IMG/VR virus record: IMGVR_UViG_3300025128_000304
Span: 1-25,312 of that record
DNA length: 25,312 nucleotides
Strand: one strand, 5' to 3'
Source: a virus
Every line of letters starts with the position of its first letter. Position 1 is the first letter of the stretch. Below are positions 1,079-21,793 of this stretch, piece after piece. The translations under genes and the position numbers were made by a program. A model generated the notes under the pieces. The model worked only from the letters and a program-made list of their open reading frames with translations. It searched no databases and was not told where the DNA came from.

Positions 1079-1401
1079 TACGGCTTCGGCGGCCAGACCG
1101 GATTAGCAGGGTCTGCCGTGTTCGCGGGTAGGTCGCGCAATGCCTGTCGATAAGCCGACTCCGCGTCGCTCATGGCAGGGCTATCGGGCAACGCCCACCA
1201 GTCTGTCTCGCCAAGAAGCCGATCACGCTCGGCGCGGAGCGCGGCCCACGGCTCGTCTGCTGTGAGGCGCGCCACCTCTGCGTCGATCTCAGCGTCGGTC
1301 GGCTGCGCGATATCGGGGCTGTCCCATCTGATTGTGTCGCCCGTCACGACCCATTCGGCGTTAGGGGCGAGGCTTGCGAGTGCTTCTGCTGTCGTTGCCA
1401 T
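1078..1401 (-). CDS. Tail fibre assembly chaperone (Phage_tail_APC-like)
   Basis: The 107-residue product ends in a region typical of Phage_tail_APC (Pfam PF16778) proteins: an RAERDRLL-x-ETDWW-ALPDSP stretch (about residues 56-74), then YRQALRDLP (about 84-92) and a proline-rich end with NPVWPPKP. Such proteins are encoded directly after tail fibre genes and are thought to help fibre folding or attachment without entering the mature particle. The gene starts in a TAATG overlap with the fibre gene stop, which fits a translationally coupled chaperone. The first 50 residues are variable in this family. Confidence 0.8.
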   Translation of the reverse strand: MATTAEALASLAPNAEWVVTGDTIRWDSPDIAQPTDAEIDAEVARLTADEPWAALRAERDRLLGETDWWALPDSPAMSDAESAYRQALRDLPANTADPANPVWPPKP

Positions 1402-3521
1402 TACGAGTAATCCAATTCGATCAGGGTGATGGTTGAGGTCGCATTTCCACTACTGTCATTGCGTTGGGCAGTCACAGTTGCACTTTGGTCGATCCTCTTA
1501 AATTCTGTGTGATAGGTGTTGCTTGAGGTCGAGCTGGGACTGTCGAGGTGTTGAATGAAATGCTGCCCCATCTGGTTTTCGGCATTGCTTATCTGGTTGT
1601 ATTCCTCAATCTCGGTGCTGCCGCGAACAATTCGTAGCGCACCGCCAGCGCGTCCGCCCGTGCTAGATATGCTCTGGGAAACAAGCACAAGAATCTTGTT
1701 AGCGGTGTTCGCCGGGGTAATGTCTGCGGTCAGGTTTGTGTCGGCGTAAGTGCCAGATGTCGAGGTTGCTTCCGTAGAGGTAGCAGCCGTTACGATCTGA
1801 AGCACCTTCCCGCCTGCCGCAGCCGCCTGAAACGTCGGTGCAGAACCACTGCCATTCGATGTCAGCACCTGACCGCTCGTGCCAGTCCCCGTCGCCCCAA
1901 TCGCGCTGGTTCCGTTGCCGTGCAAAACGCCATTTGCTGTAAACGTGCCTGCACCCGTGCCGCCTTGCGCCACACTAAGGTCTGTCGTCAGCCCGGTCAG
2001 CGCGGTGATGTCGCTGTTCGATCCAGACGCAGCAGCGCCAAGATTGGTGCGCGCTGCGCTGGCGGTGCTTGCGCCTGTACCACCGTCTGCCACGGCTAGG
2101 TCTGTCGTCAGCGTAAGCGACCCAGCAGCCACAGCGTTTGCATCGCTAATGGTTACACCACTATTTTGTATCAGCTTGCCGGTCGTGGTGTCGAAACGTG
2201 CAATCGCGTTGTCTGTTGCAGATGATGGTCCAGTAACATCGCCTGACCCAGCACCATCAGCACCCTTGTCGCCCGCGCGAGTAAAGCCTATGAACGTGTC
2301 CTCTGCGTTCGAGAACGTGCCGGATGACGCAACGTGCGTAACCGCAATCTGGAACCAGCCCGTGTTGTCGGTCAGGCCCGTGATGTTGAACGTCGCAACA
2401 TCGCCGCCGCCTGTGCGGAACACCAGCGTACCCTTGACCGTGTTCGTGCTGTCGTCAAACAGCGCGATGTATGCGGACTGGTCAACTCCGTTGGCGTCCA
2501 GATCGTCAATCGCAATGGCTGTAACGCTGGCGACAGTGGCGTTGTTGAAGCGCACGTTGCCACTACCGGGGTCAGCCATCGCAGTTGTGGTTGAGAAGTT
2601 GTAGCCAACGACCTGAGCCGCGACAGACGATACGTCGCCGCTAATACCGGCCACAGTCGTTACATCGCTGGAGATGCCAGCAACGGTCGTCACGTTTGCG
2701 CTAATACCAGCCACAGTTCCAATGTCTGTCCCGTCCGCCGCAACGGTCGTCACATCGCTGGAGATTCCGGCGACTGTCGTCACGTTGCTGTTGTTACCAG
2801 CGACTGTGTTAATGTTTGATGCGTTACCAGCAACAGAAGTTACGTTGCTGCTAATACCAGCTACAGTCGTGACGTTAGACGAGATGCCTGCGACGGTTGT
2901 GACATTCCCGCTGATTCCCGCAACAGTCTGTATCGCGTCCGTCGCGTCCGTCCCGTCCTCAATGTCCGCAAGCGTGGCAATGTCAGTCGTGACTGCGGCA
3001 AGCGTTGTTACATCGTCAGACGACGCGCCCGCTTCCGGGTTGCCGGTCGCGGTGTTGAACGCGAGATATTTGCCCTTGCGCGAGTCCTTCGCCGGAAGCG
3101 TCATGTTGATGGACGCCGGGTCTGTTACCGGAGCGGTAATCGCGCGATCCGAAAGTTCTAGAAGCTGCTGATCGAAGATGGTGAGGGCGTCAAGTTGCTC
3201 GTTAATAGCAGATGCGCGGAAGTCACCAGCGGTCACAAAGTCCGTAGTGCGCGCAATGTCTCGCGATCCGACGATAATTATTTGATCGTTGGCGTCCGGC
3301 GTGCTTGGCACATTTGTACCCGTCACGATAGTAACGTTGCCCGTTCCGTTCGCGCTGATCGCGACGGTATAGTCGGTCGTGAGGGTCAACTTCGTCGTGT
3401 TGAAGTACACGTCAACGTCCGTCTGCGTCAGGATTTCAAACGAAAACGCATACGGGCCTAGACCGGCTGACCCGGTGTAGACGACACGTCGCGTCACTGC
3501 GTTAATGCTATAGTTTGCCAT
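1401..3521 (-). CDS. Tail fibre with T7 gp17-type N-terminus
   Basis: The 706-residue protein is the receptor-binding fibre. Residues 1 to about 130 match the T7 tail fibre N-terminal domain that docks to the tail (start MANYSINAVTRRVVY, then a FSFEILTQTDVDVYF region). Residues about 194-293 are ten near-identical 10-residue units of the TVAGISSNVT type, predicted to form an extended trimeric shaft. Further on are GGTGAST and VAQGGTGAGTF motifs found in many fibres. The last ~135 residues form a separate serine/threonine-rich domain ending in ITLIELDYS, the likely receptor-binding tip. GAGG stands 8 bases before the ATG. The preceding gene ends 36 bases upstream, and the chaperone follows with a TAATG overlap. 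Confidence 0.9.
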   Translation of the reverse strand: MANYSINAVTRRVVYTGSAGLGPYAFSFEILTQTDVDVYFNTTKLTLTTDYTVAISANGTGNVTIVTGTNVPSTPDANDQIIIVGSRDIARTTDFVTAGDFRASAINEQLDALTIFDQQLLELSDRAITAPVTDPASINMTLPAKDSRKGKYLAFNTATGNPEAGASSDDVTTLAAVTTDIATLADIEDGTDATDAIQTVAGISGNVTTVAGISSNVTTVAGISSNVTSVAGNASNINTVAGNNSNVTTVAGISSDVTTVAADGTDIGTVAGISANVTTVAGISSDVTTVAGISGDVSSVAAQVVGYNFSTTTAMADPGSGNVRFNNATVASVTAIAIDDLDANGVDQSAYIALFDDSTNTVKGTLVFRTGGGDVATFNITGLTDNTGWFQIAVTHVASSGTFSNAEDTFIGFTRAGDKGADGAGSGDVTGPSSATDNAIARFDTTTGKLIQNSGVTISDANAVAAGSLTLTTDLAVADGGTGASTASAARTNLGAAASGSNSDITALTGLTTDLSVAQGGTGAGTFTANGVLHGNGTSAIGATGTGTSGQVLTSNGSGSAPTFQAAAAGGKVLQIVTAATSTEATSTSGTYADTNLTADITPANTANKILVLVSQSISSTGGRAGGALRIVRGSTEIEEYNQISNAENQMGQHFIQHLDSPSSTSSNTYHTEFKRIDQSATVTAQRNDSSGNATSTITLIELDYS
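2641..2940 (-). repeat. Ten tandem 30-base units in the tail fibre gene
   Basis: The sequence repeats with a strict 30-base period for ten units without insertions or deletions. On the plus strand each unit resembles a purine-rich start, then TACCAGCnACAGTCGTnAC. Each unit encodes a decapeptide of the form TVAGISSNVT in the fibre shaft. Units differ mainly at third codon positions and at the two residues between G and the next S/N, so the array is old or under selection for protein rather than DNA. Confidence 0.9.
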
Positions 3522-3557: not shown

Positions 3558-6500
3558 TTACGGTTGCACATACTGTGGATCGCGAGATGCGTTCAGCGAC
3601 TCAAGCATCTTTTGTGTTACTGCTGTAAAGTCTGGATGTCCGGGCTTTTGAAGATAGTATGGGCTAAAGTCATCACGTCGCGTGACTTTGCCAAATACAT
3701 CACTCAGCGCGCGGTTGGTGTACATCTTTTCAACGCGCTTGAGTTCCTTGACCAGATCGCCCCTAAATCGAATGTCCGGCCCCTGCCTCTTTGCCATCCC
3801 ATCTGTGGCTTTAATGATCGCCTCAGACATAGACATGCCGTTAATCTTCAGCATTTTTGACCTGTAGTAATTCAAAAAATACGTTGCTTCTGCCGGAATT
3901 TGTATCCCGCGATAATTAGTCGTGTTGTTGGGAGCGACCGCCCCCAACGCCTCATAGCGAACGGCGAGAAGATTGGGGTCGCGGGTAGAGACGCGCGGTC
4001 CCATACGGAAACCAAACGGCGACATCATAGTTTCGGAATACGACTTCGTGTCCCCGAAGAAATCAACATTCTGAGCAAGACTGTGCGGAGCCGCGCGCCG
4101 CTTGTAATCGTTAATCATCTCGTAATAGAAGCGCGTCAACTCAGAGCTTGGGTCGCCGCCTGCTTCAACCGTGGCGTTGAATTGGTCAAGCGTCATGCGC
4201 TTACTTGGGACACCGGCCTCTCGACCTCTCTCGGCTTGAGATTTTTGATAACGTGTGCGCGAGATATGCGCCCACAAACTAGAACGCGGATACCCAAGGC
4301 CCGGCACGGCTGCGGTTGCTGTCTTTGCGTACTCACCACCGAGAACGCGGATAAACCTAGAAACCTTGCTGTCGCCTTCCTCTCTCGGAGGAGACGCCAA
4401 AGCATCAAGAACGCGCGAAAAAGCCTCTGCCTCTGGGCGTTGACTCAACTGGTTCACCATTAAGTGAGACCCAACAAATGCAATCTTTTCGGCCATCCCT
4501 TCTTCGCTTCTGTAGTCAAATTCAGTAAACGCCTCACGGGCTGCTGCGGCCATCAAGAACGGCGCAGTCATATATTCCATTCGCTCAAGGTTAATAAACG
4601 CCTCGCCTTCAAATTCTCCCGTTCCTAGCGTTATCGCGCCCGGCCCCATAATCTTAGCGACCTGATATTTGATTTCATCAGTGATGTCTGCCGATTCTGT
4701 GCGGAAACTGTTTGGACGCCAGCCGCTTTTCTCCATGATCTCGCGCCGCTTGTAATCGGCTGGTCCGGGGCCAGTAAACGAGTCATCATAAAACACAGCC
4801 GCAAAAGCAGCAGTTCCCATCGCCTGCTTGGCAAGCGCCATGTCGCGATGACGGCCACCCTTTTTCCAATTTGTGTAGAAAGCCGGAGAAAGCTGCGCGA
4901 ATGGTGTAACCGCCAAGCCCTCAATGACGCCATTGTGTGCAGACTTTGCAAACATTGTTAGAGGCTTGAGCAACTTTGATTGCGCGACTCGCTGCGTCGC
5001 GTAGTGCATCTTGCCAATAGCTGTAGAGCGATCAATATCGCCCTGCAAAGAAACTTGCTTTCCGTAATCAAGCATGTCTCCAAGAGTTTCGATTGGCGTT
5101 TCATCTGCAAACTCAACAAGAGCCTGCTGCTGCGCCTTAATTGCGTCCTCGGGAGACAGGCCCGCCTCAATCGCGTCGTCATATACCTTCGCTGCGTGGC
5201 GCATAGCCTGCTCTTGGTAAACGACCGTATGCGCGAAACCCTTGGAGAACTCGTCCACCATGCCCATTGGGCGGAAAGACAAGAGTTCCTGAAGCAACCC
5301 TACGCCTTGGATTATCCGCCCAATGGCGTTTGGTTCTAACATCTGCCCGTCTTCCTCTTTCATCGTAGGGAAGAACTGGACCTCTCGGCCTCTTACCGAA
5401 ACTGTTTTTGTAGGGATTTTTAAAAACCCACCTACATTAAGAGGCGCTCTATGAAAGTGTCGGGGGTCCATTTTGTTTGCAGAAAAGTCGCGCGTTGCGC
5501 CGCCTTCTACGGCAAACTTTGCAGCGCGGACAACGGCGGCACGAAGCCCTGTAACATAGCCAGATGCGCGCAGCACAACATCTTCTGCATAATAGCGATC
5601 TGGGTCGGCGCGTTGCCCAAAAAGGGATTGGCGCGTCTTACCGATTGCAATAGCCGCTGGCGTAGAAAGCGTTTCTGCCAGCATGTTGACCATAGACGCC
5701 GCACTAAACAGCCATGTGTCTGGGCTGCTGATATACATAGATTGAGCGGTTTGGATGCCTGCGTCAAAAAAAGCACCCAATATGCCGGGTCGCAGCATCT
5801 TGCTGCGCTCACGATTGCTTTCTGCGTTGTGCAGCTCGTTCGCCAAATCGCGAAGATGGTTCATGCCGCCATTGGTTGACACAATGTCGTCAAGGACGCT
5901 CATTGACTCTACGTTCGTAAGGTCCCCCATCTTCTTAAATACGTTCATGGTGCGCGCAATGTCTGTCGCGCCGTCTTGGAAGTAGCTAATCATGATGCGC
6001 TGACGTTCAGCCACTTCTACAAAACGAGCCGCTTGCTCTGTAGTGGCATTGCCAACACGCATAACTTCTTGCAGTTCTCTTAACTCAGCCCACCCGGTAT
6101 TCAGCATGTCAACCATACCGGCAAAGGTCTTGCTAATCTCGTCACCACCGATCTTGGTGGTCATGTCCTTTCCTTGGAACTGCTGGTTGATAATGCGCTC
6201 CTTAACGCCAGCCTCTCTCGCATCTGCAACAATATCGTCAATGGTGCGCGGCTTTTTAGGGTCAACTGCGCGGTCGCCAAACTCCTTGACCAGCGCAGCA
6301 AGACCATCCTCATCATAGAACGTAGTGTTTGGCTTGAAAGGCGCAGCCTCTACGCCCGCCTCTTTTTGTGACGGCGTGGGGGAAGGCGCTTGGCGCGCAT
6401 TGATTTCGTCCTGAGCGCCAGCGTTTACAATTTCTTCAAGATCGTCTTCAGCAAAACTTTCCTGCACAGACTTAGAGGCAGGCGTTACAGGCGTGTCCGG

Positions 6501-6830
6501 CAGCGTGGCCGCTTCCTCCGCCTTTTCTTCAGCCTCTCTCTGGGCCTGCGCCTCTGCTGCCTTTTCTTTTTGAGCCTCTTTCTGACGACGCGCAAACTCA
6601 GAAGGCGACAATGTTTCTGCCGGGCTTTGCCCAAAGACGTCGCTCAAAACTCGTTTAGTCGCTTGCCGCCGGGCAGACCCAGAAAGATTGGCTTGAGCCA
6701 CCTGAACAGACGGCATCTCTGCTTGTTCCTGCTCCTGCGTTGGCTCAATGCCAAGAGACGGCGCGGGTTCTTCAGCGCCGCTCATCTCTGACAAACGCTG
6801 CTCAAGATTTTTTGTGTCACGAACAGCCAT
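3558..6830 (-). CDS. Large internal virion / DNA-ejection type protein
   Basis: The 1090-residue product occupies the place of the largest internal core protein in T7-type operons (gp16 position), just before the fibre. Residues 1-150 are acidic, Glu/Ala/Gln-rich and probably disordered, including an EAQKEKAAEAQAQREAEEK charged helix. Residues 150-1090 are a long, mostly helical body with membrane-friendly stretches (for example around SSPDTWLFSAASMVNMLA and AMGTAAFAAVFY). I see no lytic transglycosylase motif (no E-S-x-x-x sequence of the gp16 type), so peptidoglycan cleavage is not supported. It may belong with large polyvalent-protein-associated families, but this needs a profile search. 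The start is fixed by a TAATG overlap. The motif LSDVFG occurs near both ends. Confidence 0.8.
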   Translation of the reverse strand: MAVRDTKNLEQRLSEMSGAEEPAPSLGIEPTQEQEQAEMPSVQVAQANLSGSARRQATKRVLSDVFGQSPAETLSPSEFARRQKEAQKEKAAEAQAQREAEEKAEEAATLPDTPVTPASKSVQESFAEDDLEEIVNAGAQDEINARQAPSPTPSQKEAGVEAAPFKPNTTFYDEDGLAALVKEFGDRAVDPKKPRTIDDIVADAREAGVKERIINQQFQGKDMTTKIGGDEISKTFAGMVDMLNTGWAELRELQEVMRVGNATTEQAARFVEVAERQRIMISYFQDGATDIARTMNVFKKMGDLTNVESMSVLDDIVSTNGGMNHLRDLANELHNAESNRERSKMLRPGILGAFFDAGIQTAQSMYISSPDTWLFSAASMVNMLAETLSTPAAIAIGKTRQSLFGQRADPDRYYAEDVVLRASGYVTGLRAAVVRAAKFAVEGGATRDFSANKMDPRHFHRAPLNVGGFLKIPTKTVSVRGREVQFFPTMKEEDGQMLEPNAIGRIIQGVGLLQELLSFRPMGMVDEFSKGFAHTVVYQEQAMRHAAKVYDDAIEAGLSPEDAIKAQQQALVEFADETPIETLGDMLDYGKQVSLQGDIDRSTAIGKMHYATQRVAQSKLLKPLTMFAKSAHNGVIEGLAVTPFAQLSPAFYTNWKKGGRHRDMALAKQAMGTAAFAAVFYDDSFTGPGPADYKRREIMEKSGWRPNSFRTESADITDEIKYQVAKIMGPGAITLGTGEFEGEAFINLERMEYMTAPFLMAAAAREAFTEFDYRSEEGMAEKIAFVGSHLMVNQLSQRPEAEAFSRVLDALASPPREEGDSKVSRFIRVLGGEYAKTATAAVPGLGYPRSSLWAHISRTRYQKSQAERGREAGVPSKRMTLDQFNATVEAGGDPSSELTRFYYEMINDYKRRAAPHSLAQNVDFFGDTKSYSETMMSPFGFRMGPRVSTRDPNLLAVRYEALGAVAPNNTTNYRGIQIPAEATYFLNYYRSKMLKINGMSMSEAIIKATDGMAKRQGPDIRFRGDLVKELKRVEKMYTNRALSDVFGKVTRRDDFSPYYLQKPGHPDFTAVTQKMLESLNASRDPQYVQP

Positions 6831-8170
6831 TATTCACCAACCTTCGTCTCAGACCGAGGGGAGCTGTCTATAAGGGATTGGTCCCAAATCACCGCTTCCT
6901 GCTGTTTTTTTCGTTTCAATCCAGAAAACCCTTGGTCAATCAAATCTTGGTCAGAAATGTTGGGGTTTGCACGAAGCCGGGCAATGAAGTTGCCCACTGA
7001 CTCACCTCGCGTTAGTTCCTCGCCAGCATTTTCGGCAACTAGCAGAAGCCTAGACCTAGCGTCATCAGGCAAGTCGTCAACTTTTTGGAGATACTCAAAA
7101 ACTTTGTCACGCATAACTTTCTTCGGAATCTTTAGTTCAAATGTAGTTCCGCCAGCAGTTTGCCGTAGTTCAGATTGAGTCCCACCCGTGGTATCAAAAT
7201 ATACACCCGGCCCCATTGCGCGAGGCCCGCCGATTGGTTTGTCAACTTTTAAGGACGATTCCGGGGTTGCAGAGGTGGTTCCGTGGCGTAGCGTTTGTTC
7301 AGGTTCAATAATATCCGACACTGCCCTAACAGCTTGTGGTGCCACCTTAGCAAGCGCGTCAACGCCCTTTGCCAGACCGGCACCAGTAGCCGCGCCTATG
7401 CCAACATTAGTGGCAAGTTCCAGAGCGCGTTCTTCGGGCGTTTGTTCATAACCAGCAATTTCTTTGACTTCCTGAACCCCAGCGGTTTCAGGCGCGGTCA
7501 TAACAGCGCCAGCAATAGCCCCAGATTTTGCGGGATTCTCAACCGCCTTTTGTGACAGGGCGGCAATCCTATTTTTGATTGCCGCAATGCCTGTGCGTTT
7601 TGCCACTTCTTTAGTGCCAGCACGGGCTGCAATCCCAACGCCAGCCGTGCCAAGGCCAAGATAGGTGGTGGGGTCAGACAGAACGCCGCGAATGAAACGC
7701 CATGTGCCAGCCTTGCTTATGGGCAACTGGTCATAGCGCCCCATCAAGTGCAGCCATGAGTTCGCTTGTGCTGGCGATGCGTCAACCATAATCTCAGCAA
7801 GCTGCGCCACCATTCCCGGCTGCCCGGAAAAGCCAACAGGCCCGGCAAAGTTGTAGTTGAACTCGCCCATCAGGTCGATCCCGTACTTAGCCGCTTCTTC
7901 TGGCGTGCCGAGAAACTCCTTGTCCTCAAACATAAAGTAAACATCTTTCGCGGCCTGCACGAACTCGCCGTCAAACTGAAGCATGTCTTCTGTGATCTTG
8001 GGCTGCTCCTCAACAGGCTGGTAATCTTCCATGCTTGCGCTGCCAGACATAACGTCTTCGACACGAACAGAGCCACTCGCGTCCGAAACCGCGTTCCGCG
8101 ACTGGTTAAGATAATGCTGCGCGTAAAAGCGCGCCTCATTTGTTTCGTACATGCGGTCAAAGTCGTCCAT
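6830..8170 (-). CDS. Virion-type protein with putative ADP-ribosyltransferase domain
   Basis: The 446-residue product has an acidic N-terminal half (residues 1-150). Next come three glycine/alanine-rich, possibly membrane-interacting stretches (about 171-184, 216-231, 255-268), as seen in ejected virion proteins. Residues about 293-435 look like an ADP-ribosyltransferase fold of the polyvalent-protein type: LRHGTT (294-299), GPGVYF (320-325) and a final QGFSGL (413-418) followed by QEAVIWD (424-430). The candidate NAD-binding and catalytic residues are H296, Y324 and E425. It sits between two internal virion genes, so injection into the host with the DNA is plausible. AGGGTGCGAGATAGGC precedes the ATG. 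The ART call is motif-based and unproven. Confidence 0.7.
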   Translation of the reverse strand: MDDFDRMYETNEARFYAQHYLNQSRNAVSDASGSVRVEDVMSGSASMEDYQPVEEQPKITEDMLQFDGEFVQAAKDVYFMFEDKEFLGTPEEAAKYGIDLMGEFNYNFAGPVGFSGQPGMVAQLAEIMVDASPAQANSWLHLMGRYDQLPISKAGTWRFIRGVLSDPTTYLGLGTAGVGIAARAGTKEVAKRTGIAAIKNRIAALSQKAVENPAKSGAIAGAVMTAPETAGVQEVKEIAGYEQTPEERALELATNVGIGAATGAGLAKGVDALAKVAPQAVRAVSDIIEPEQTLRHGTTSATPESSLKVDKPIGGPRAMGPGVYFDTTGGTQSELRQTAGGTTFELKIPKKVMRDKVFEYLQKVDDLPDDARSRLLLVAENAGEELTRGESVGNFIARLRANPNISDQDLIDQGFSGLKRKKQQEAVIWDQSLIDSSPRSETKVGE

Positions 8171-8172
8171 GC

Positions 8173-9981
8173 CTATCTCGCACCCTTACTTCTAATATGT
8201 TCTAAATACTCTTTTTGCGCCCGCTTGTATGGCCCGATAAAGCCCTCAAGCGCACTGATTTGGTTGCTTGTTAACTTGTCAAGCACAGATTCTGGCAGGC
8301 TATCTCTGGCTGTTCTAATTTCTTGAAGGTTCAAATCTTCAAACGGAACATTAAGTCTTTCAAATTCTGCCTGCAAAGCCTTGAGTGCCTCATCCCTTGT
8401 AGCTTCAAAACTTTTTGTAATTTCGTCTTCAATGACACCAGCGGCCACACTGCGAACAGTTGGCTCAATCGGGCGCGGCGTTGATTTATCGCTCTGCTCC
8501 CATGTAGTTAATAGGTTCTCATACTCGTCAACTTTTTGTTCATAGGCCAAAGTAATTGCAACCTCTTTTGCCTGCGCTTCTGCAATGTTTGCCGCTGGCC
8601 CGCCAGTCGCATCTGGAAGCAACCCAGACATAGAGTTCGCTTGCTGGCGAATTTGTCGGGCTACTGCGCCTCGTTGCGTTTTAAGTCGGTTGAGGAGTTC
8701 AACTCTTTTTTTGGGCGGAACATTAAAAGACTCAAAATCGGCATTAAGTTCTGCAATGTTGTTCGTGATCCCGCTGGTAATTCTTTCAGCAACCGTATAC
8801 ACCGCAGAGTCGCCGCCCTCGGCATCATCCATTTTCGTAGCAGTGTTGTATTCAGGAATTGTTATCTGCCCCATACGCGCCATGCGGCCAAGAGTACGCT
8901 CTGCAATCTCTCGCGCTCTTGGGGTAGCACTAGGGTCTTGAAATGTTAAAGCGGCGTCAGCATAAAGACGTTCTGCGGACTCTTCTCTTTCTTTTTCAGC
9001 AGCATCATCCAGCTTGTCTTGCGCGACTTGCTCATCTCGGACGTACTTTAACAGTTCGTCCTTCTCAATTTCGTCGCCCGCAATACTGGAGAACAAAGCT
9101 GTATAGCGCCCGAAGTCACCACGCGCTACAGCTTCCTCGCGATCAGCCGCGTCGTCAAAACGCTCGAACAAGTGGTTCGCCAAAACAGCGCGCCGCTGGT
9201 CGCTAATTTCTTTGTTCAACGCCTCTCGCACAGATTCGGTATAGGCCGGGTCACCAACATTTATCGTGCGCGCAGTAATCTGATCGCGAAGCTGGTAGGC
9301 GTGTGACAAAGTAAGATCGCGTCCTTGGTCGTCAGTTTCGCCAGCAGCAGACGCCAGCACTGCGCCAAAACGATTACCGGCACCGTCAACATCATCCGCT
9401 ATAGACGCACGTTCCTGCGCCTTAATCCGCTTGTATTGAGACTCAAGACCCGTCTTGAACGCAGCGGAAAACAAAGCATTAGTTGAAGCTGAATATGCGT
9501 TTGCCTGTTCTGGGTCAATCTTTCCAAGCACATCACGATGCCCAGCGATAAGAGCCTTGGCCTCTAGCTGCTGCTCTTGAACGTCAATCGGAAGCCCCGA
9601 CTTAAACGCAGCCGTCAATCCGTCAAAGTGTTTGCGCGCCTCAAATTCCAATTCTGTGCGTAGACGCGCGCCGACACTAGAGCGCAAGGCTGACCCATAA
9701 ATTGTATCTGGATCACCAACAACATCGTCAATGTCCATACCGCTTTCCATAGCGGCTTCAATCTGTTCTTTTGTTATTGGGTTTTCAAAATCATATTGAG
9801 CGCCCTCACGCGCCGCGCGCTTGCCCGCTTCCTCAAACGCATAGGCGCTGATTTTGTCAAGCGCCTGAGACATTTGCTGGTAGCCACGCGCCTCTGCTGC
9901 ACCTGCACCGGCGTAATCAATGCGTGGTGCCGCTGCTAGGCTTACGCCCAGAGGGCGATAACGGGGGAGACGGTCTGCCAT
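8173..9981 (-). CDS. Internal virion protein, helical (gp15-position)
   Basis: The 602-residue product is almost entirely charged and helical, with coiled-coil-like stretches (for example EKDELLKYVRDEQVAQDKL and the following EKEREESAERLY). It has no cysteine-rich or catalytic motif that I can see. It follows the gp14-like protein and precedes two further large virion proteins. This is the order of internal core proteins that form the ejection channel in T7-type phages. The N-terminus (RYRPLGVSLAAAPRIDYAGA) resembles the start of many phage core proteins. The ATG lies two bases past the upstream stop (TAG TC ATG). The structural role is inferred from order and composition. Confidence 0.8.
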   Translation of the reverse strand: MADRLPRYRPLGVSLAAAPRIDYAGAGAAEARGYQQMSQALDKISAYAFEEAGKRAAREGAQYDFENPITKEQIEAAMESGMDIDDVVGDPDTIYGSALRSSVGARLRTELEFEARKHFDGLTAAFKSGLPIDVQEQQLEAKALIAGHRDVLGKIDPEQANAYSASTNALFSAAFKTGLESQYKRIKAQERASIADDVDGAGNRFGAVLASAAGETDDQGRDLTLSHAYQLRDQITARTINVGDPAYTESVREALNKEISDQRRAVLANHLFERFDDAADREEAVARGDFGRYTALFSSIAGDEIEKDELLKYVRDEQVAQDKLDDAAEKEREESAERLYADAALTFQDPSATPRAREIAERTLGRMARMGQITIPEYNTATKMDDAEGGDSAVYTVAERITSGITNNIAELNADFESFNVPPKKRVELLNRLKTQRGAVARQIRQQANSMSGLLPDATGGPAANIAEAQAKEVAITLAYEQKVDEYENLLTTWEQSDKSTPRPIEPTVRSVAAGVIEDEITKSFEATRDEALKALQAEFERLNVPFEDLNLQEIRTARDSLPESVLDKLTSNQISALEGFIGPYKRAQKEYLEHIRSKGAR

Positions 9982-9983
9982 GA

Positions 9984-10523
9984 CTACACCAAAAGACCTG
10001 CGCCGGGTGTTGATGTACCGGCCCCAGAGGTCGCATACGAAACATTAGCGCCCGGCGATGGCGGGCCACCGATTTTAGAGAACGATGTTCCAGCACTCAA
10101 AAGCGTACCGGCGGCGGCAAACATAGCACCACGCCTCGCCTGCTTGGCCTGATCCATGTAAAGTTGCGCCTGAATGGACCCGCCCTCGCGGGCAATAATC
10201 TGGTTGTCTTCAGTAACGAAAAACTCTTTTGCGCCCTCAGATTGCGTAAACTGAGCGAGACCCAACGCACTACCGGAAAACGGATCAATCCCACCAGCGG
10301 CGGCACGAGCGTTTAATGTAGAGTTTGTTCGCACGATGTTTTTAAGGGCATTAACGCCTTGCTGCCGGTACTTCAGCGCCTCGCCTCTGGCCTGAACTTG
10401 CGACATTGCAGCCTGCTGCGCCAAACCACGCGCCTGCGCCTTACCCGCCTGCATCTGCCCGTAAGCAGAAACAACAGAAAGGCCCGCGCCAATAAACGGA
10501 AGTGCTGGTGCTATTGCCGCCAT
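9984..10523 (-). CDS. Internal virion protein, gp14-like
   Basis: The 179-residue product begins MAAIAPALPFIGAGLSVVSA, a hydrophobic glycine-rich segment. A helix rich in Q and A (GKAQARGLAQQAAMSQVQARGE) follows, then a conserved-looking AGGIDPFSGSALG region (about residues 75-88) and a second hydrophobic Ala/Gly stretch near residue 130. This layout is typical of the small internal core protein that follows the tail tubular genes in T7-type phages and helps form the membrane channel during DNA ejection. I choose the ATG at 10523, one base after the stop of tubular protein B (TAA G ATG), over an in-frame start 12 codons upstream that would overlap that gene. Confidence 0.8.
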   Translation of the reverse strand: MAAIAPALPFIGAGLSVVSAYGQMQAGKAQARGLAQQAAMSQVQARGEALKYRQQGVNALKNIVRTNSTLNARAAAGGIDPFSGSALGLAQFTQSEGAKEFFVTEDNQIIAREGGSIQAQLYMDQAKQARRGAMFAAAGTLLSAGTSFSKIGGPPSPGANVSYATSGAGTSTPGAGLLV

Positions 10524-10524
10524 C

Positions 10525-12732
10525 TTACTGCCCCGCGCTAATCTTGTAGTCGATACCAAGCACAGTCATCTTGAGCGGCACAGACTGCCCAATCGTGATC
10601 TGCCCTTCGTAAGTATATCCCAAAATACCATGAAGTGTTTTAATTCCTGTAAACTCAGGAACCGCCGCATCAAGCATGTCTGTGTCAAACTGACGGAACG
10701 CAATCTCTTTGCCGCCAATCGTCATGGATTGCGTTTCAAAGATTTCTGCGTTTACCTCGAATACACGCTTTTTGAAACCACGCAATGAACCGCTCTGCAA
10801 CCGTAGCTCAACCGGAAGCGTCTTAATCTCAGTGTTGTAATTCAGTCCGACTTGATAGCTTGCAGTCGCTGCCGCAGCGAACGTAATGGTGAAAGGAGAC
10901 GCCGGTACAGTTTGTTCAGCCTCAACCACACCATCTCGAATGACCTGCACGGTTTCGCCTTGAAGGTGGTCCATAGTGACCGAAGACGCTGCGCCGCCAG
11001 ACTTGGCAGAATCCAGATAGATTGCATCATCAAACAACTCCACAAGATAAATGTCAGCGCCATTAACAGTACGCTTGACCACAGTATATATAGAATCAAC
11101 GTCCACACCGACATTTAAGAAGTCCCCATCAGTGGTCCACTCAGACGGCGCAATGACGTTCTGAACGCGCAACAATGTGTAACAAATGATAGAACCATCA
11201 TCGTCGTTCACGATTAAAAGGCGGTCGCCCTCGTCTGTGCTGGTCGATACGCGTGTTGCCATTTCGCTTGGCGATTTCAGCAGATGCGAAGAAAGCAGCG
11301 AAACTTTGGCAGACGAGTATGCGCTTTGCACATCAGTAAAAACAAAATCTTGTAACGCCTTGCCTTGACGCTGAATGAACAGCGTTGCACCGTCAATGTT
11401 TTGCAAGCGGATGCCCGGCCTAATGCCATAAGCGGACTGCTGCTTGACAATCAGGTTCGCGGGCGTGATCGGATCATCAAGAGACTGCGGCACATAAAAC
11501 TCGCCGCCAGTTGTGAAAATTTGCAGATGACGCCCAGAGTAGATGTCAACGATAGCGTTGAACGTGTTGGTATCTAGTGTTGCTTGAACGGCACTGTCGT
11601 CTAGCTGTTCGCCGGGATCAAAGTTAAAGAAGTCGCTGACGCGCGACCCAAACAAGGTTTGCGGCAAGGATTTGGTGCCGCCGAAGAACAGTCGCCCCTC
11701 GTGGAACACGGCGCTGCGTGGATAGCCGCGAGTTGCAGACCAAGCGTCTTCATGTCCGTGTTCTATTTCCCAGTTGCCACTAGTGATCGCGCTATTGTCA
11801 AAGAACGGAATCTCGACGTAAGCCTTAACGCTGGTATCGCTCACATATTCCGTAATACGAGCGCGACCAAAACCATCAAGGGCATTGATGTATTCGCCAA
11901 CGGCGGCTTGCTTGAAAGCCTTAACCTCATAGTTAGACGTATTATCAGGCGCAGTAATCCACGCCGGATCAACCGTCACCACTTTTGTTGACGCTACATA
12001 GTCTTCAACATGGCGCGTCTGGCCCGACCCAGTACCAGACGTAATCTCAACCATCATGCCGTTGGGCTGATCGTCAGACGTAAAGCTGCTGGATGATTTA
12101 AGGGTAATTGTAGTAGACGTTCCGGCTTGCGCGGTTCCGTTGTCGGTCGTTACCGACGACGCGGTGATTGTAATGTTACCGCTGGCGGCTGACGGCGTAA
12201 TCGTATAGGTCGGGTTGTGAACGCTTAAAGTGAAAGCGTACTCAGGAATCCTTGAAAACGGCACGGCGTCTACAGTCCATGTCGCATCCGTCGCACCGCG
12301 CACAAGACGCAAAGGCTCAAGGTCTTCGTGGACAATAATCAGCGTGTCCGCTGACTGCACCCAGTTCATTTCCGGCAGGATCGCAGCCGTTAGCGACGCC
12401 ACCGTGGCGTAGTTATTGCCGCTGCCGTTAATGTTCGTGATCTGCGCGCCGTCCTTGAAGACGTACATCTTGCCCGGCGTAAATACCAGCATGTAACTGT
12501 CGGACACACTAAACTCAAACGGCACCATGCGAACAGCGTTTGCTGCGCCAGCGTCTAATGTTGCAATATATTTGGTGCCGGGACGGCGGATAGCGCCGCC
12601 CTGCGGTTGAATGGAGACGTTACGCGCGGTTGTCAGACCCGCCTGATATTGGGCAAGGTCTGTGCGTGCGCGAAGACGGGGGTCGAGTTCGCCGGAAGTA
12701 AAATCATTCTGGATGCGAATGACACGGCTCAT
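10525..12732 (-). CDS. Tail tubular protein B / nozzle (gp12-like)
   Basis: The 735-residue product starts MSRVIRIQNDFTSGELDP, followed by LARTDLAQY-type and GGAIRRPGTKYIA segments (about residues 20-58). These are a hallmark of the nozzle or stabilisation proteins of podovirus tails. The rest is beta-rich with many T/S/V repeats, as expected for a propeller that closes the tail tube. It is just downstream of the adaptor (tubular A) with an ATGA overlap, and GAGG stands before the start. It is about the length of T7 gp12 (794 residues). Expected role: end of the tail tube, fibre attachment and retention of packaged DNA. Confidence 0.88.
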   Translation of the reverse strand: MSRVIRIQNDFTSGELDPRLRARTDLAQYQAGLTTARNVSIQPQGGAIRRPGTKYIATLDAGAANAVRMVPFEFSVSDSYMLVFTPGKMYVFKDGAQITNINGSGNNYATVASLTAAILPEMNWVQSADTLIIVHEDLEPLRLVRGATDATWTVDAVPFSRIPEYAFTLSVHNPTYTITPSAASGNITITASSVTTDNGTAQAGTSTTITLKSSSSFTSDDQPNGMMVEITSGTGSGQTRHVEDYVASTKVVTVDPAWITAPDNTSNYEVKAFKQAAVGEYINALDGFGRARITEYVSDTSVKAYVEIPFFDNSAITSGNWEIEHGHEDAWSATRGYPRSAVFHEGRLFFGGTKSLPQTLFGSRVSDFFNFDPGEQLDDSAVQATLDTNTFNAIVDIYSGRHLQIFTTGGEFYVPQSLDDPITPANLIVKQQSAYGIRPGIRLQNIDGATLFIQRQGKALQDFVFTDVQSAYSSAKVSLLSSHLLKSPSEMATRVSTSTDEGDRLLIVNDDDGSIICYTLLRVQNVIAPSEWTTDGDFLNVGVDVDSIYTVVKRTVNGADIYLVELFDDAIYLDSAKSGGAASSVTMDHLQGETVQVIRDGVVEAEQTVPASPFTITFAAAATASYQVGLNYNTEIKTLPVELRLQSGSLRGFKKRVFEVNAEIFETQSMTIGGKEIAFRQFDTDMLDAAVPEFTGIKTLHGILGYTYEGQITIGQSVPLKMTVLGIDYKISAGQ

Positions 12733-13343
12733 CCACGAACCTCAGTCAGCGGGAAGTCCATGATGTTTTGCGGCGGGCGATCTACGCCGTCAATGTTCAT
12801 CGACACGCGCGACAAGCCGCCACGCATGTTCTCGCTTGGCGAACCATAAGCAAGGCGATGGTAGTAATCGCCCTTCTGGATTTGGTCTGTGATTGGCTCA
12901 GCAAACGCAGCCGCAAGCGCGTGCTTGAGCAGGTTCACAAAGTATGGAGGAAAGAAGGCAGGCTCAGGGCGATACTGGTAGTCAATCCAGACCTGCTCGT
13001 AATTAGCGTAAAGAGCCGTGCCGTAAATCTCAAAGTCGTTTGCAGGTGTACCGCCTACTGCGCTGTTGATAAAGACCGCCTTCGGGTTGCCAAGAATGTC
13101 GCCCGGCAACGCGTAGCGATACTTCCACTCGTTAATGGGATCATCGATAAGCTGCGCCAGCTTGACCTTCTTGATCGACCATGAATAAGGGTACTGCATA
13201 AGCAGTGTGTCGCGGATGTCGTCGTACAAGCGATCCGCAATCTGCGCTTCGTCTGTGCCTTCTGTGAAGGACGAGATAGATGCAGCGCCAAGCATAAGCA
13301 TGGCATCGGAACAAATCGAAAGTTTAGTGTCACCAGAAGCCAT
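12729..13343 (-). CDS. Tail tubular protein A / head-tail adaptor (gp11-like)
   Basis: The 204-residue product begins MASGDTKLSICSDAMLMLGA and contains LYDDIRDTLLMQYPYSWS (about residues 39-56) and a WKYRYALPGD segment (about 72-81). This pattern of an N-terminal helical bundle followed by a Y-rich beta region is typical of phage tail tubular protein A. It should bind the portal ring and join it to the nozzle. GAGGTAG precedes the ATG by 5 bases. The gene is preceded by a stable hairpin (13363-13384) and coupled by ATGA to the nozzle gene, consistent with co-expression of the two tail tube parts. Confidence 0.88.
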   Translation of the reverse strand: MASGDTKLSICSDAMLMLGAASISSFTEGTDEAQIADRLYDDIRDTLLMQYPYSWSIKKVKLAQLIDDPINEWKYRYALPGDILGNPKAVFINSAVGGTPANDFEIYGTALYANYEQVWIDYQYRPEPAFFPPYFVNLLKHALAAAFAEPITDQIQKGDYYHRLAYGSPSENMRGGLSRVSMNIDGVDRPPQNIMDFPLTEVRG

Positions 13344-17629: not shown

Positions 17630-17843
17630 TAGACTTCTTGCCCCTCAAAATATCTGCGTCCGCCTTTCGCGCACCACCCTTGCCGCTAACAAAAGACTTG
17701 ACGCGGCCCATTGCCCACTGGTGCGCGCTAACCTTGGGCCTCGACCCGGATGAATAATACGCCCCAAGGCCGCGACGATAGACCTTCATCAGTTTGCCTT
17801 TGTCAAAGCGATCTGCACCTTTGATACCAGAAAACTCAGGCAT
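17622..17843 (-). CDS. Small basic phage protein with GGARKADAD motif
   Basis: The 73-residue product has YRRGLGAYYSSGSRP (residues 22-36), HQWAMGRVKSFVSG (41-54) and GGARKADADIL (56-66). Short proteins with this YxRGLGAYYSSGSRP...W...RV.SF...GGARKADAD pattern occur widely in phages near the portal gene, with no known function. It overlaps the next upstream gene by 8 bases and the downstream DUF6321-like gene by 8 bases. It is part of a run of five tiny lysine/arginine-rich genes. Confidence 0.75.
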   Translation of the reverse strand: MPEFSGIKGADRFDKGKLMKVYRRGLGAYYSSGSRPKVSAHQWAMGRVKSFVSGKGGARKADADILRGKKSSG

Positions 17844-18018
17844 TTTTACGTTGCTCCGAAACTCGATCCATCATTGCGCCGGTCAGCAAGCCACGCTTGT
17901 ATAGACGGCGCGTCCTTGCGATCTCACCGCGACGCTCATCAGGATTCTTTGCACCGCGAATATACTTCTTCGGTATTCCGCTTTTCTTGTCTTTCGGAGC
18001 CTTCTTGAACTTCCTCAT
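17836..18018 (-). CDS. Small basic phage protein (GIPKKYI type)
   Basis: The 60-residue product is very basic. It contains KSGIPKKYIRGAKNPDERRGE (residues 12-32), then IARTRRLYKRGLLTGAMMDRVS. Short proteins of this PKKY..GAK....R..EI..T...Y..G kind are found in many phages, often in this cluster, without a known role. The ATG at 18018 overlaps the preceding stop (ATGA), supporting this start. An RNA- or DNA-contact role is possible from charge alone. Confidence 0.7.
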   Translation of the reverse strand: MRKFKKAPKDKKSGIPKKYIRGAKNPDERRGEIARTRRLYKRGLLTGAMMDRVSEQRKNA

Positions 18019-18149
18019 GCCCTGCCCTTCGGCTTGCCAGACTTACGCATCGCAATCGCGACAGCCTGCTTGAACGGCTTGCCCTCTTTCATCAACATCT
18101 TGATGTTCTGACCAACCGCCTTGTCAGACTTACCGGACTTAAGCGGCAT
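18015..18149 (-). CDS. 44-residue basic protein, DUF6496-like
   Basis: I read this gene directly from the sequence: 44 codons from the ATG at 18149 to a TGA overlapping the next start. The product starts MPLKSGKSDKAVGQNIKMLM and contains GKPFKQAVAIAMRKSGK. This is the pattern of DUF6496-like phage miniproteins (MPLKKGxSxKxIxxNIxxxMxxGxPxKQAVAIA). Function unknown. It starts 8 bases inside the end of the upstream 53-residue gene. The family match is good, so a real gene is very likely despite its size. Confidence 0.78.
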   Translation of the reverse strand: MPLKSGKSDKAVGQNIKMLMKEGKPFKQAVAIAMRKSGKPKGRA

Positions 18150-18300
18150 AGGTTTTCTTCTTCCGCTTCATGGTCGTCTTCATGCTGACGTTCTCAACGC
18201 GACCACCGTACTGCTTGGCGTACCCTTTCGCCGCGTTCATGCCCGCCTTGGTGTAGGCGAAGGTGCGTGTCTTACCGTTTTTCATTACAACTTTTGGCAT
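18139..18300 (-). CDS. 53-residue basic miniprotein
   Basis: I read this gene directly from the sequence: ATG at 18300 in a TAATG overlap with the upstream gene, stop TAA at 18139. The product begins MPKVVMKNGKTRTFAYTKAG, continues MNAAKGYAKQYGGRVENVS and ends in a KRKKK cluster. Proteins of the MPK...FpYTkaGm.AAkaYAKk.GgkVen kind are frequent in phage genomes close to the portal gene and have no known function. Lysine content and size suggest nucleic-acid or capsid contact. It belongs to the cluster of five tiny basic genes between the MGG paralogues and the portal. Confidence 0.75.
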   Translation of the reverse strand: MPKVVMKNGKTRTFAYTKAGMNAAKGYAKQYGGRVENVSMKTTMKRKKKTYAA

Positions 18301-18506
18301 TAGCCTGCTCCTAGAGTAGTCTGCAATTCGTCGCCGCGTTGCGCGCCACCCGGCCCCAGCAAAGGGCGACCGGCGCGGCGAGAGCGTGTGGCAGCAGCGC
18401 GACGGCGCGCGTCGTCGGATGCCTTAACCGGCGCGGGTTCTGGTTCCGGCGCAGGCGGCGGTGCAACAGGAGCGGGCGCTTTAGGCTTGGACACAACGCC
18501 ACCCAT
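18300..18506 (-). CDS. MGG miniprotein, paralogue of the next gene upstream
   Basis: The 68-residue product begins MGGVVSKPKAPAPVAPPPAP. A proline/glutamate linker follows, then a basic helix (DDARRRAAATRSRRAGRPLL) and the end LQTTLGAG. Both ends match the upstream neighbour (18506-18742): MGG-[VL]-[VL]-S-x-PK-x-PAP at the start and RRA-R...LL.P...LQTTLG at the end, with a different linker. It overlaps its neighbours by TAATG at both sides. A virion or portal-associated role is possible from position. No function known. Confidence 0.75.
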   Translation of the reverse strand: MGGVVSKPKAPAPVAPPPAPEPEPAPVKASDDARRRAAATRSRRAGRPLLGPGGAQRGDELQTTLGAG

Positions 18507-18742
18507 TACTCGCTTCCCGATCCAAGCGTGGTCTGAATACCAAGCCGTGCGTCCTCACGCTCCGGCGAAAGCAACATGCGCTGACCGCCGATCTGGCGGG
18601 CGCGCCGCTGAGAGGAAAGCTGTGCCTTCTGCCGCCGTTCTTCTTCAGCAAGTCGCGCTTCTTGCCGCTCCTGCGCAGCGGTCGTCTCAGGCGCAACCTG
18701 AGCGGGCGCTGGCATTTTCGGGCCGCTAAGTAATCCACCCAT
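18506..18742 (-). CDS. MGG miniprotein, tandem paralogue
   Basis: The 78-residue product begins MGGLLSGPKMPAPAQVAPE. A charged helix (QERQEARLAEEERRQKAQLS) leads to the shared end RRARQIGGQRMLLSPEREDA followed by LGIQTTLGSG. It is clearly related to the following gene, but its middle is a Glu/Arg helix instead of a Pro-rich linker. I choose the ATG at 18742, in a TAATG overlap with the acetyltransferase stop, over an upstream in-frame start 31 codons earlier. It lies directly between the virion-type acetyltransferase and the portal cluster. Confidence 0.75.
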   Translation of the reverse strand: MGGLLSGPKMPAPAQVAPETTAAQERQEARLAEEERRQKAQLSSQRRARQIGGQRMLLSPEREDARLGIQTTLGSGSE

Positions 18743-19203
18743 TATCCGGTCCTCGCAAACATAATATGGTCTGCACCATCCGGGCCGTAGCCACGCATGA
18801 CGCCTTCTTCCGCGAACTTTAACGCACGCGCCCATCTAATTGCAACATTATTTCTACAATCAACGACTATCTGCAATCTATGTAATTGCATATCGCTATA
18901 AATTGTATTGAAGTATCGTATAGCACCGCGTGTTAGTGCTATAGGATTTGTTTCAACCTTATATGAAGTCAACAGCCAAGCCTCTGCAACGCCCTCCCAT
19001 ATAGGCATTGCGCCCCAGCAACACGCTATTTCACCACGAAGAAGCGCGGTGTAGCTGTGTTCATGCTGCGCCATAGCTTTGAGGCGCATGTCATAGTCAG
19101 GGAACTGCTGAAAATACATCTGCTCAAACGGGCGCAAGTCCATCATTCGCACATGCGCCCAATGAAACGGCACGACCGAAACGCTTGAGTGGTTCGTTAT
19201 CAT
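18742..19203 (-). CDS. GNAT-fold protein, internal virion protein A-like
   Basis: The 153-residue product resembles GNAT N-acetyltransferases of the kind annotated in podoviruses as internal virion protein A (T7 gp13-like). It has a central GVAEAWLLTS strand (residues 71-80), HRLQIVVDCRNNVAIRWARA (108-127) and LKFAEEGVMRGYGPDGADH (128-146), matching the end of the acetyl-CoA fold. Substrate unknown, and it may be purely structural. The start is uncertain: the ATG at 19203 lacks a Shine-Dalgarno, while a GTG at 19296 in the same frame sits inside a hairpin. Its codon use is visibly more AT-rich than that of its neighbours (about 18830-18990), suggesting separate acquisition. Confidence 0.72.
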   Translation of the reverse strand: MITNHSSVSVVPFHWAHVRMMDLRPFEQMYFQQFPDYDMRLKAMAQHEHSYTALLRGEIACCWGAMPIWEGVAEAWLLTSYKVETNPIALTRGAIRYFNTIYSDMQLHRLQIVVDCRNNVAIRWARALKFAEEGVMRGYGPDGADHIMFARTG

Positions 19204-19271
19204 AGATGTTGTGTGTGTGTTGTCGTCATGGTACAAAATGTGCGTTGTGTGTAAGTTTCTCCCTGTGTACT

Positions 19272-19313
19272 TAGGGCGTGTGTTTTTCTCCGGCACACGC
19301 CCTATTTTTTTTT
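19272..19313 (+). terminator. Intrinsic terminator facing against the operon
   Basis: An 11-base-pair stem (TAGGGCGTGTG 19272-19282 with CACACGCCCTA 19294-19304, loop of 11 bases) is followed on the plus strand by nine T (19305-19313). This is a full rho-independent terminator for plus-strand transcription. On the minus strand, where the surrounding genes lie, the hairpin is preceded by A and followed by AAGTAC, so it does not terminate that transcript. It lies right at the large terminase stop codon. Confidence 0.8.
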
Positions 19314-20868
19314 ACGCAAACACATTGAAATCCATGTTGGCTTGAGCCTGCTTAAACAGCGGCTTGCCATTCGGGTTCCGCGTAAGGCGACGATGTTCGC
19401 CACCACCCAACATCAGATAGCCATACGCATCACCGACATGCGAGTGATCGTTCTTCGATGGCACGTCGCGGAAGCGTTCATGCCCAGCACCAATCGCCAT
19501 GCGCTTGAAGTGATAGCCCCCGGCAAGCGACTTGCGGATGCGGTTGCAATCTTTCGACACAAGCAAACCCGGCTTACCGTCAATCAACCTGTTCATCGGC
19601 ATCGCACCAGCCTCACGACGCACCATAAAGTCGTTTGAGTTGGTCGGCTGCGCCCTGAGTCCAAGCGTCCGCAGGTGGTCAAACGCCGTCACTTCAAAGA
19701 TTTCGTCGCGTTTACCGCCTGCGGGGTCGCCCCAGATGAACACCTCGCATTTATCGAACTTCGTCGAAATGTCTGCCATCAGGTGATGGGCGAATCTCTC
19801 TAGGCCCATATCAAAGGCTACCAACTCATGCACGACATGCCAACGACCATTCGGCATCTTCTGTCCAAACACAGCCGCAGGCGTCAGACCAAAGTCGAGC
19901 CCGATATGTACGGGCAACCCGACCTCAATCTCAACATCAGCCGCCATCAGGCTGTCGCTGTATTCGTGCCACACGGGCTTGCCGTCCTGCACATACACAT
20001 ACTTCGCACCAGCATAACACTCGATCCAGTCCAGCGTCTTGCCCGCCAACTGCTGCTCGTAATAACCGGGCGGCAGGTTGCTGACGTTCTCTGCCTTTGG
20101 GTTCAAGCGCCAATACTTGTTAGCGCCAAACAGCGCGTCGTCATGCTCCTTAGTCGCCTCAACCACGCCACCGGGCTGCTTGTAGAACTTCCACGGATAG
20201 CGACCACGGATCGGGTTCTTCTCTGCCAACTCGTGCCACCAATGATCTGAATCCATCGGGTTCGTACTCATCCAGACGCCACGCCACGGACAGCCACCAT
20301 GCTTCTTCGTCGGGTAACGACCGACACGCGAAGTCAATCCATCGACCACCGCCTTCGGCAACTCCCGCGCCTCGTCAACAAAGCCACCCGTCAGTTCCAG
20401 CGACAGCAGCTTCCGCACGTCACGCGGCTGGTCCAGCGCCAGAAAGATAACTTCGCAGTCCAGCCCCGGCGCACCATCGCGCTCAGGCAGCTTGATGTGA
20501 TGCGTGATCGGCGGCGACCAACGCATCTCGCCCCAAGTGTTCTCAGGGAATATCTCCTGCCACGTCTTGATCGTCGTGGTCCGCAACTCAGGATAGCTGT
20601 TACGAATAACCGCGAACCGCGTGTAGCGGATGTTATCAACCGGCGATGGCGGTTGCTTCACGGCGCGCAATATCACTTCCGCCAGACTCGCATAGGTCTT
20701 GCCGGAACCAACCGGCCCCATCAAGCCACGAACAAAGCTGTCGTCGTTCAGAAAATTCCACGTTGTCGGACTTTGCGAAAAGTCCAAGTTCAACCCGGTG
20801 AGCGCGTCGTCGCCCTTCTGGCGGCGACGGCGCGGCGAACGATCCGTGGCACGCTGTGATCTAGGCAT
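19312..20868 (-). CDS. terL: Terminase large subunit
   Basis: The 518-residue ATPase-nuclease packages DNA through the portal. Visible motifs are Walker A GPVGSGKT (residues 51-58), a Walker B/catalytic GGFVDEARE (161-169, E166), motif III STNP (201-204), and the RNase H-like nuclease with HIGLDFGLTP (D325), WGDPAGG (D381) and HSHVGDAYGY (D480). An Arg-rich N-terminus (SPRRRRQKG) is odd and may bind nucleic acid. I choose the ATG at 20868, with GGAG 7 bases before it, over one 9 codons upstream. It overlaps the upstream zinc-ribbon gene by 8 bases. Length and motif order fit podovirus-type terminases. Confidence 0.95.
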   Translation of the reverse strand: MPRSQRATDRSPRRRRQKGDDALTGLNLDFSQSPTTWNFLNDDSFVRGLMGPVGSGKTYASLAEVILRAVKQPPSPVDNIRYTRFAVIRNSYPELRTTTIKTWQEIFPENTWGEMRWSPPITHHIKLPERDGAPGLDCEVIFLALDQPRDVRKLLSLELTGGFVDEARELPKAVVDGLTSRVGRYPTKKHGGCPWRGVWMSTNPMDSDHWWHELAEKNPIRGRYPWKFYKQPGGVVEATKEHDDALFGANKYWRLNPKAENVSNLPPGYYEQQLAGKTLDWIECYAGAKYVYVQDGKPVWHEYSDSLMAADVEIEVGLPVHIGLDFGLTPAAVFGQKMPNGRWHVVHELVAFDMGLERFAHHLMADISTKFDKCEVFIWGDPAGGKRDEIFEVTAFDHLRTLGLRAQPTNSNDFMVRREAGAMPMNRLIDGKPGLLVSKDCNRIRKSLAGGYHFKRMAIGAGHERFRDVPSKNDHSHVGDAYGYLMLGGGEHRRLTRNPNGKPLFKQAQANMDFNVFA

Positions 20869-21386: not shown

Positions 21387-21793
21387 TCTTTCTCCTGTGT
21401 GTCTTCATCAATTATTTGGTAGGTCGTTGTGTCTGGACCCTTCACGTTAATCCCGATCATGCTGGGACGGCGGTCATCACTATTCGGCTCAAGCAAGCCA
21501 CGATGCTTCGCCAACAGGCGCAAGGCAGATAGCTTGTCGTGCATCTCCACCTCAATCGTGTTGCCCTCCTCGCCGGGCGTGATCTTCACCTTCTTGATTG
21601 CGCGACGAGCGCGCGCAGATAGCTGATCCGACGCCCTAACCTGAACGCGACCCATCTCATCCCACGACAGCACGTCCGTAATCTCGCTGCCCGACAGCGC
21701 CTCAAGTTCCTGTACGACCGCTTGTCGGCGGTCCTCGTCTGCCGCCTCTAGCGCGGCGCGTGCTTCACGAACGGATAAGGGTTTGTCAGACAC
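21383..21793 (-). CDS. terS: Terminase small subunit, putative
   Basis: The 136-residue product has a charged helical N-terminus (SVREARAALEAADEDRR), a middle ALSGSEITDVLSWDEMG region (residues 32-48), a basic RARRAIKKVKI stretch (61-71) and MHDKLSALRLLAKHRGLLE (84-102). The HDKLSALxLLAKHxGL motif is typical of phage small terminase C-terminal parts. Position two genes before terL supports the call. Translation starts at GTG (21793, or 21796) with GAGGGG 7 or 4 bases upstream, overlapping the end of the PAPS-reductase-like gene. In-frame upstream ATGs would run far into that gene. Confidence 0.8.
   Translation of the reverse strand: MSDKPLSVREARAALEAADEDRRQAVVQELEALSGSEITDVLSWDEMGRVQVRASDQLSARARRAIKKVKITPGEEGNTIEVEMHDKLSALRLLAKHRGLLEPNSDDRRPSMIGINVKGPDTTTYQIIDEDTQEKE

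Follow-up and report, generated by a model that had tools for sequence, protein, structure and literature searches.

A minus-strand block of the window, as we call the whole 25,312 nt stretch analyzed here (IMGVR_UViG_3300025128_000304, a 25-kb genome fragment from a short-tailed marine phage), encodes the virion genes listed in Table 1 in the order gp12-gp14-gp15-P0001-gp16-like, together with a portal protein, a T7-type capsid assembly protein, and the major capsid protein. P0001 combines an ejection-protein core with a C-terminal domain that resembles ADP-ribosyltransferases (ARTs). Its stop codon overlaps by one base the start codon of the gene for the 1090-residue internal virion protein, which was 24% identical (1e-20) to an internal virion protein of Methylophilales phage MEP301. 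MEP301 was also the nearest cultured phage by capsid, with a 64.5% identical major capsid protein and the same virion gene order. The protein at the gp15 position gave no family match except a weak one to Band_7 in Pfam. A preliminary description of this DNA had placed P0001 among internal virion proteins, and the order and homology of its neighbors, which are T7-type virion genes, bear this out.

Table 1. Coordinates of P0001, its parts, and the neighboring virion genes in the window
Feature	Coordinates	Strand	Basis or remark
Large internal virion protein, 1090 aa, gp16 C-part type	3558..6830	minus	phrog_6651
P0001, 446 aa	6830..8170	minus	ORF; ejection-protein core plus C-terminal ART-like domain
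P0001 residues 1-275, conserved core	7346..8170	minus	common to the ART-less relative L005, 95% identity
ART-like domain, residues 292-436	6863..7297	minus	cassette: absent in L005, other N-part in L007
Motif I, RHGT, starts at residue 295 (H296)	7277..7288	minus	predicted strand 1
Motif II, GPGVYF, starts at residue 320 (Y324)	7196..7213	minus	predicted strand 2
Motif III, QGFSGLKRKKQQEAVIWD	6881..6934	minus	QGFSGL from 413, QEAVIWD from 424
602-aa protein, gp15 position	8173..9981	minus	assigned by position
gp14-like internal virion protein	9984..10559	minus	phrog_418 7e-14; T7_gp14 0.009
gp12-like tail protein	10525..12732	minus	phrog_376 5e-132
gp11-like tail tubular protein	12729..13343	minus	phrog_394 1e-31

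The gene order is that of T7 gp16 and of its counterpart in Pseudomonas phage LUZ100, gp47, and the N-terminal part of P0001 aligned to the gp47 N terminus, residues 49-191 being 39% identical to residues 44-176 of this gp16-like protein. P0001 thus unites gp16-like homology, which spans residues 49-191 only, with a position after gp14 and gp15. T7 gp16 is a single chain, whereas here the N-part and the C-part are separate genes and the ART-like domain is attached to the N-part. Homology and gene order suggest that P0001 and the 1090-residue protein together represent a gp16 divided into two genes. In MEP301, the small gene at the corresponding place encodes gp25 (161 aa), which lacks the ART motifs. 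The region of the MEP301 large internal virion protein is annotated as two overlapping genes, gp24 and gp23 (17645-19039 and 18984-20744 of the record), possibly reflecting a frameshift or a sequencing error.

We found the motifs RHGT with H296, GPGVYF with Y324, and QGFSGL...QEAVIWD with E425 at the residues that the preliminary description had assigned to them; on the minus strand, its coordinates for the domain (6866-7303) cover residues 290-435. H296 is the candidate NAD-binding histidine, and motif III holds two candidate acids, the PARP-like E425 and D430 as the alternative. The Gly/Ala-rich segments said to precede the domain do exist, at about residues 170-270 of the core, but their membrane-like character was not borne out, the maximum hydropathy of P0001 being 1.12 in a 19-residue window, below that of a typical transmembrane helix.

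Standard family models did not recognize the domain. No Pfam ART model, ART-PolyVal (PF18760) included, matched P0001, its relatives in L004 and L007, or the window, the gathering score not being reached, and direct searches of Pfam, PHROG, and PDB sequences with the domain returned nothing useful. We scanned 2.9 million viral contigs twice with a motif I-II pattern, HGT-(15-25 residues)-GPG[VIM]YF, and obtained 14 and 18 stretches. Since every match outside the P0001 sub-family lay in a single reading frame and most matches carried a Pfam ART-PolyVal or PARP signal (several above the curated cut-off), this set is more than a product of chance; matches of the L024 and L030 types gave a weak Pfam ART signal or none. 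The pattern GPGVYFDT added one match, in a short and seemingly unrelated ORF.

In an hhalign profile-profile comparison, the domain family (three members) scored 93.3% (E 2.6e-7) against eight of the ARTs obtained in these scans, over an alignment that spanned all three motifs, and comparison with a 15-member ART set gave 91.8%; a reversed profile and 30 shuffled profiles reached at most 1.6%. By this measure, the domain is homologous at the profile level to recognized ART-PolyVal members. Because the ART comparison set had been selected by motifs I and II, we reran the test with the region downstream of motif II alone. The best alignment fell at motif III; scores as high came from 2 of 300 shuffles, neither of which aligned at that place. 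G414 was invariant in all 18 aligned domains, and the position of G417 held G or A. Loss of the H, Y, or E residues in homologues, which had been named as evidence against the ART assignment, was not seen: all three sub-family members retain these residues and the motif glycines although they differ from one another by 15-23%. A search with PF18760 across 301 genomes of one phylum, intended as a motif-unbiased sample, found a single weak match, and PDB profile searches with the ART alignments reached PARP10 and tankyrase only at E values of at least 0.1.

Structure prediction pointed in the same direction. An AlphaFold model from the three-sequence alignment was poor (pLDDT 50). With 15 ART rows added, the model reached a pLDDT of 69 and a pTM of 0.61, values that are partly circular in that the rows had been chosen by motif, and it placed strands at motif I, motif II, a TFELK segment, and both parts of motif III. 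Tankyrase headed the Foldseek list for the PDB, and RES toxin and Tpt1 stood lower; all three belong to the ART superfamily, although the best E value was 0.48 and none was significant. In BFVD, a viral library, three matches fell below 1e-3, and several of those listed were named ART-PolyVal or PARP, again from a model whose alignment contained ARTs. The model and the Foldseek lists are therefore supportive of a predicted ART fold but partly circular, because ARTs were included in the model alignment. The preliminary ART-fold reading accordingly held up on profile-profile comparison and motif specificity; the structural check proposed for it gave ART folds as the best PDB matches, from a moderate model, without a PDB match significant by itself. 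Overall, motif specificity, the profile-profile comparisons, the downstream region, and the moderate model support an ART fold of the H-Y-E/ART-PolyVal kind.

The candidate residues follow one another in the order of H in strand 1 (H296), Y in strand 2 (Y324), and an acid in strand 5 (E425 or D430). On sequence grounds, H296 and Y324 agree with the histidine and tyrosine found in ARTs of the PARP type and of polyvalent proteins. E425 occupies the position at which PARPs such as PARP1 have their catalytic glutamate. D430 could match the strand-5 aspartate of the polyvalent-protein clade (PMC5512222), an assignment of our own. The sub-family retains both acids; in most outgroup domains, the E425 position is occupied by H, N, F, or V.

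We then compared P0001 among its relatives. Three alignment-based scans of viral contigs returned the same few close relatives each time, with L007 as the one addition. P0001 was unchanged in L002 and L003 and 93% identical in L004. The L005 protein terminates at residue 285, with the next gene immediately behind it, so that the entire ART-like domain is missing. The L007 copy of the domain, about 78% identical to that of P0001 (77% over a 162-column alignment and 80% in the tblastn segment), is joined to a different, shorter N-terminal half, with another large same-strand ORF directly downstream. The dN/dS ratio was 0.06-0.08 for the P0001 core, indicating strong constraint, and 0.20-0.37 for the ART-like domain, indicating a weaker but clear constraint; the domain is thus under purifying selection. 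Its GC content was 49%, versus 55% for the core. The absence from L005, the other N-terminal half in L007, the dN/dS contrast, and the lower GC content fit an exchangeable accessory module, the L005 difference reflecting either a gain or a loss. When 50,697 phage records were searched with the domain by tblastn, the window copy had no match and the L007 copy gave only chance-level ones; genome contigs yielded no homology relatives of the domain and one pattern match, whose length was not a multiple of three. The L007 protein at the gp15 position (3923-5617) resembles its counterpart in the window over the first ~175 residues only (46%), which suggests recombination breakpoints inside ejection-protein genes.

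Among known systems, the ART-PolyVal and Tox-ART-HYD2 domains (PMC5512222) come closest. They share with P0001 the H in strand 1, the Y in strand 2, and an acid near strand 5, the HGT / GxGxYF / GYDG...FDP layout, and the fusion to virion proteins. They differ in that the P0001 domain lies below Pfam detection and has a PARP-like E425 in addition to D430, and in that P0001 carries one ART on an ejection protein without another effector domain. Pfam, PHROG, and the profile work revealed a single recognizable effector domain in P0001, and not the several effectors fused in one virion-borne chain that define a polyvalent protein. A large protein of Rhodobacteraceae phage LS06-2018-MD07, encoded after an internal virion protein gene, gave an ART-PolyVal signal below the cut-off (E 1e-4); unlike P0001, it is a multi-domain polyvalent protein of 3000 aa with a methyltransferase and DUF7178, and is annotated as a methyltransferase. 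In Sulfitobacter phage phiGT1, gp5 has an ART-PolyVal-like domain just below the cut-off (E 1e-6, 30.0 bits) and is encoded in the head-gene region, but between portal and scaffold, outside the ejection-gene position.

The parallel with T4 Alt that had been drawn for P0001 stands by function only. Alt is a virion-borne ART that is injected with the DNA and modifies host RNA polymerase (PMC5512222), and a similar delivery is predicted, and a similar target conceivable, for P0001. Alt is, however, a myovirus head protein with a different active site, of the R-S-E clade, whereas the P0001 site is of the H-Y-(E/D) kind; membership of P0001 in the Alt/VIP2 clade, as that clade is defined (PMC5512222), is ruled out. 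P0001 is also less novel than the preliminary description suggested: among the enzymes of polyvalent virion proteins that modify other proteins, ARTs are described as the most common, and ART cargo in virion proteins, including fusions with the virion RNA polymerases of N4-like podophages, has been predicted before (PMC5512222). About 3% of podoviruses are reported to carry ARTs (PMC9503650). In the part of the literature that we covered, we found no paper on an ART carried by a T7-type ejection protein, and we regard P0001 as a divergent variant of the known theme, placed on such a protein.

We propose, with a probability of roughly 0.6, that P0001 is a split-off N-terminal and middle piece of a gp16-like protein with a C-terminal ART of the H-Y-E/ART-PolyVal kind, which is packed into the virion, ejected, and modifies the host early. 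The motifs and their order, their conservation in the sub-family, the profile relation to ART-PolyVal, the gene order, and the presence or absence of the cassette, together with its occurrence on another core, support this reading directly. We infer packaging, ejection, catalysis, cytoplasmic location, and target as follows. P0001 would be a late product that joins the gp14-, gp15-, and gp16-like proteins inside the head and is ejected before the DNA. Its Gly/Ala-rich part might assist it in arriving at the inner membrane or passing through it. Within minutes of the start of infection, the ART at the C terminus would then transfer ADP-ribose from host NAD+ to a protein of the host. The membrane-crossing step is uncertain because hydropathy shows no classical transmembrane helix. 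In T7, gp14, gp15, and gp16 are ejected and form a DNA channel; the N-part of gp16 remains with the periplasmic tunnel, and its C-part goes to the cytoplasm (PMC8954989). NAD+ is available inside the cell but expected to be scarce in the periplasm, so that an ART on a P0001 that behaved like the T7 gp16 N-part could not easily act there.

As for the target, our first guess would be host transcription, as with T4 Alt, and our second guess defence proteins. The former is reasonable because we found no phage RNA polymerase: a T7-type RNA polymerase model gave no match in the window, in the L003, L004, and L005 records, or in MEP301, and matched LUZ100 as a positive control. The MEP301 paper likewise reports no RNA polymerase (PMC8024684). 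Such a gene could sit in the missing part of the 25-kb fragment.

An anti-defence role is nevertheless a close rival to the Alt-like one. The ejected ART might have a defence protein as its substrate, or might hydrolyse cellular NAD+, and leave transcription alone. The presence and absence of the cassette between near-identical phages, and a domain that evolves faster than the core, suit such an accessory, arms-race function better than they suit a core switch of transcription; phage ARTs have also been placed in NAD+-based conflicts (PMC9503650). Our analysis turned up no target or partner gene, and the sequence reads alike for an NADase and a transferase; we consider this version less likely than the preferred one.

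Divergence from Pfam models, and the occurrence of the P0001 core without the domain, could instead mean that an ART-derived domain has lost catalysis and plays a structural or binding role on the ejection protein. Candidate catalytic residues and motif glycines that persist across the diverged sub-family, and a domain dN/dS below 0.4, make this improbable. Less probable again is a chance motif resemblance in an unrelated small virion domain: the missing direct family match and the poor fold prediction from the domain's own alignment would agree with it, but the specificity of the motif I-II pattern, a profile match with clean nulls, the independent match at motif III, and the Foldseek lists all speak for an ART.

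Returning to an ejected, catalytic ART as the preferred reading, we put forward a wider model tentatively: ART modules may swap on and off the C termini of gp16-N-type proteins, with a component of the T7-type ejectosome as a cargo vehicle through which small phages, apparently without an RNA polymerase, retune host transcription or disarm defence at entry. P0001 offers a small, tractable example of an enzyme module on an ejection protein, with nearly identical phages that have or lack it as a natural control. If it is active, enzymes that modify the host can travel as cargo of a podophage ejectosome, and the cassette is a clean way into the function of such ARTs. Current family models miss some ART domains of marine podophages, and the published 3% of podoviruses (PMC9503650) may be an underestimate.

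Elsewhere in these contigs, a tail fibre protein (1401-3521 of the window, minus strand, and 5070-7193 of L005) contains near-repeats of the type TVAGISSNVTTVAGISSDV, whose number, judged by eye, seems unequal between the two. A 184-aa ORF that adjoins the terminase large subunit gene (18742-19296, minus strand) occupies the place of MEP301 gp44, which is annotated as a putative acetyltransferase, and had no Pfam match below 0.01. The same was true of a 265-aa ORF (21786-22583, minus strand), whose start, SLGAGVQSTVMALMAARGE, resembles the PAPS-reductase/ATP-pyrophosphatase motif. The ART-less relative L005 encodes a YqaJ recombinase and a serine resolvase domain (9999-11027 and 11101-11655, minus strand), a pair that has also been reported in MEP301 (PMC8024684).
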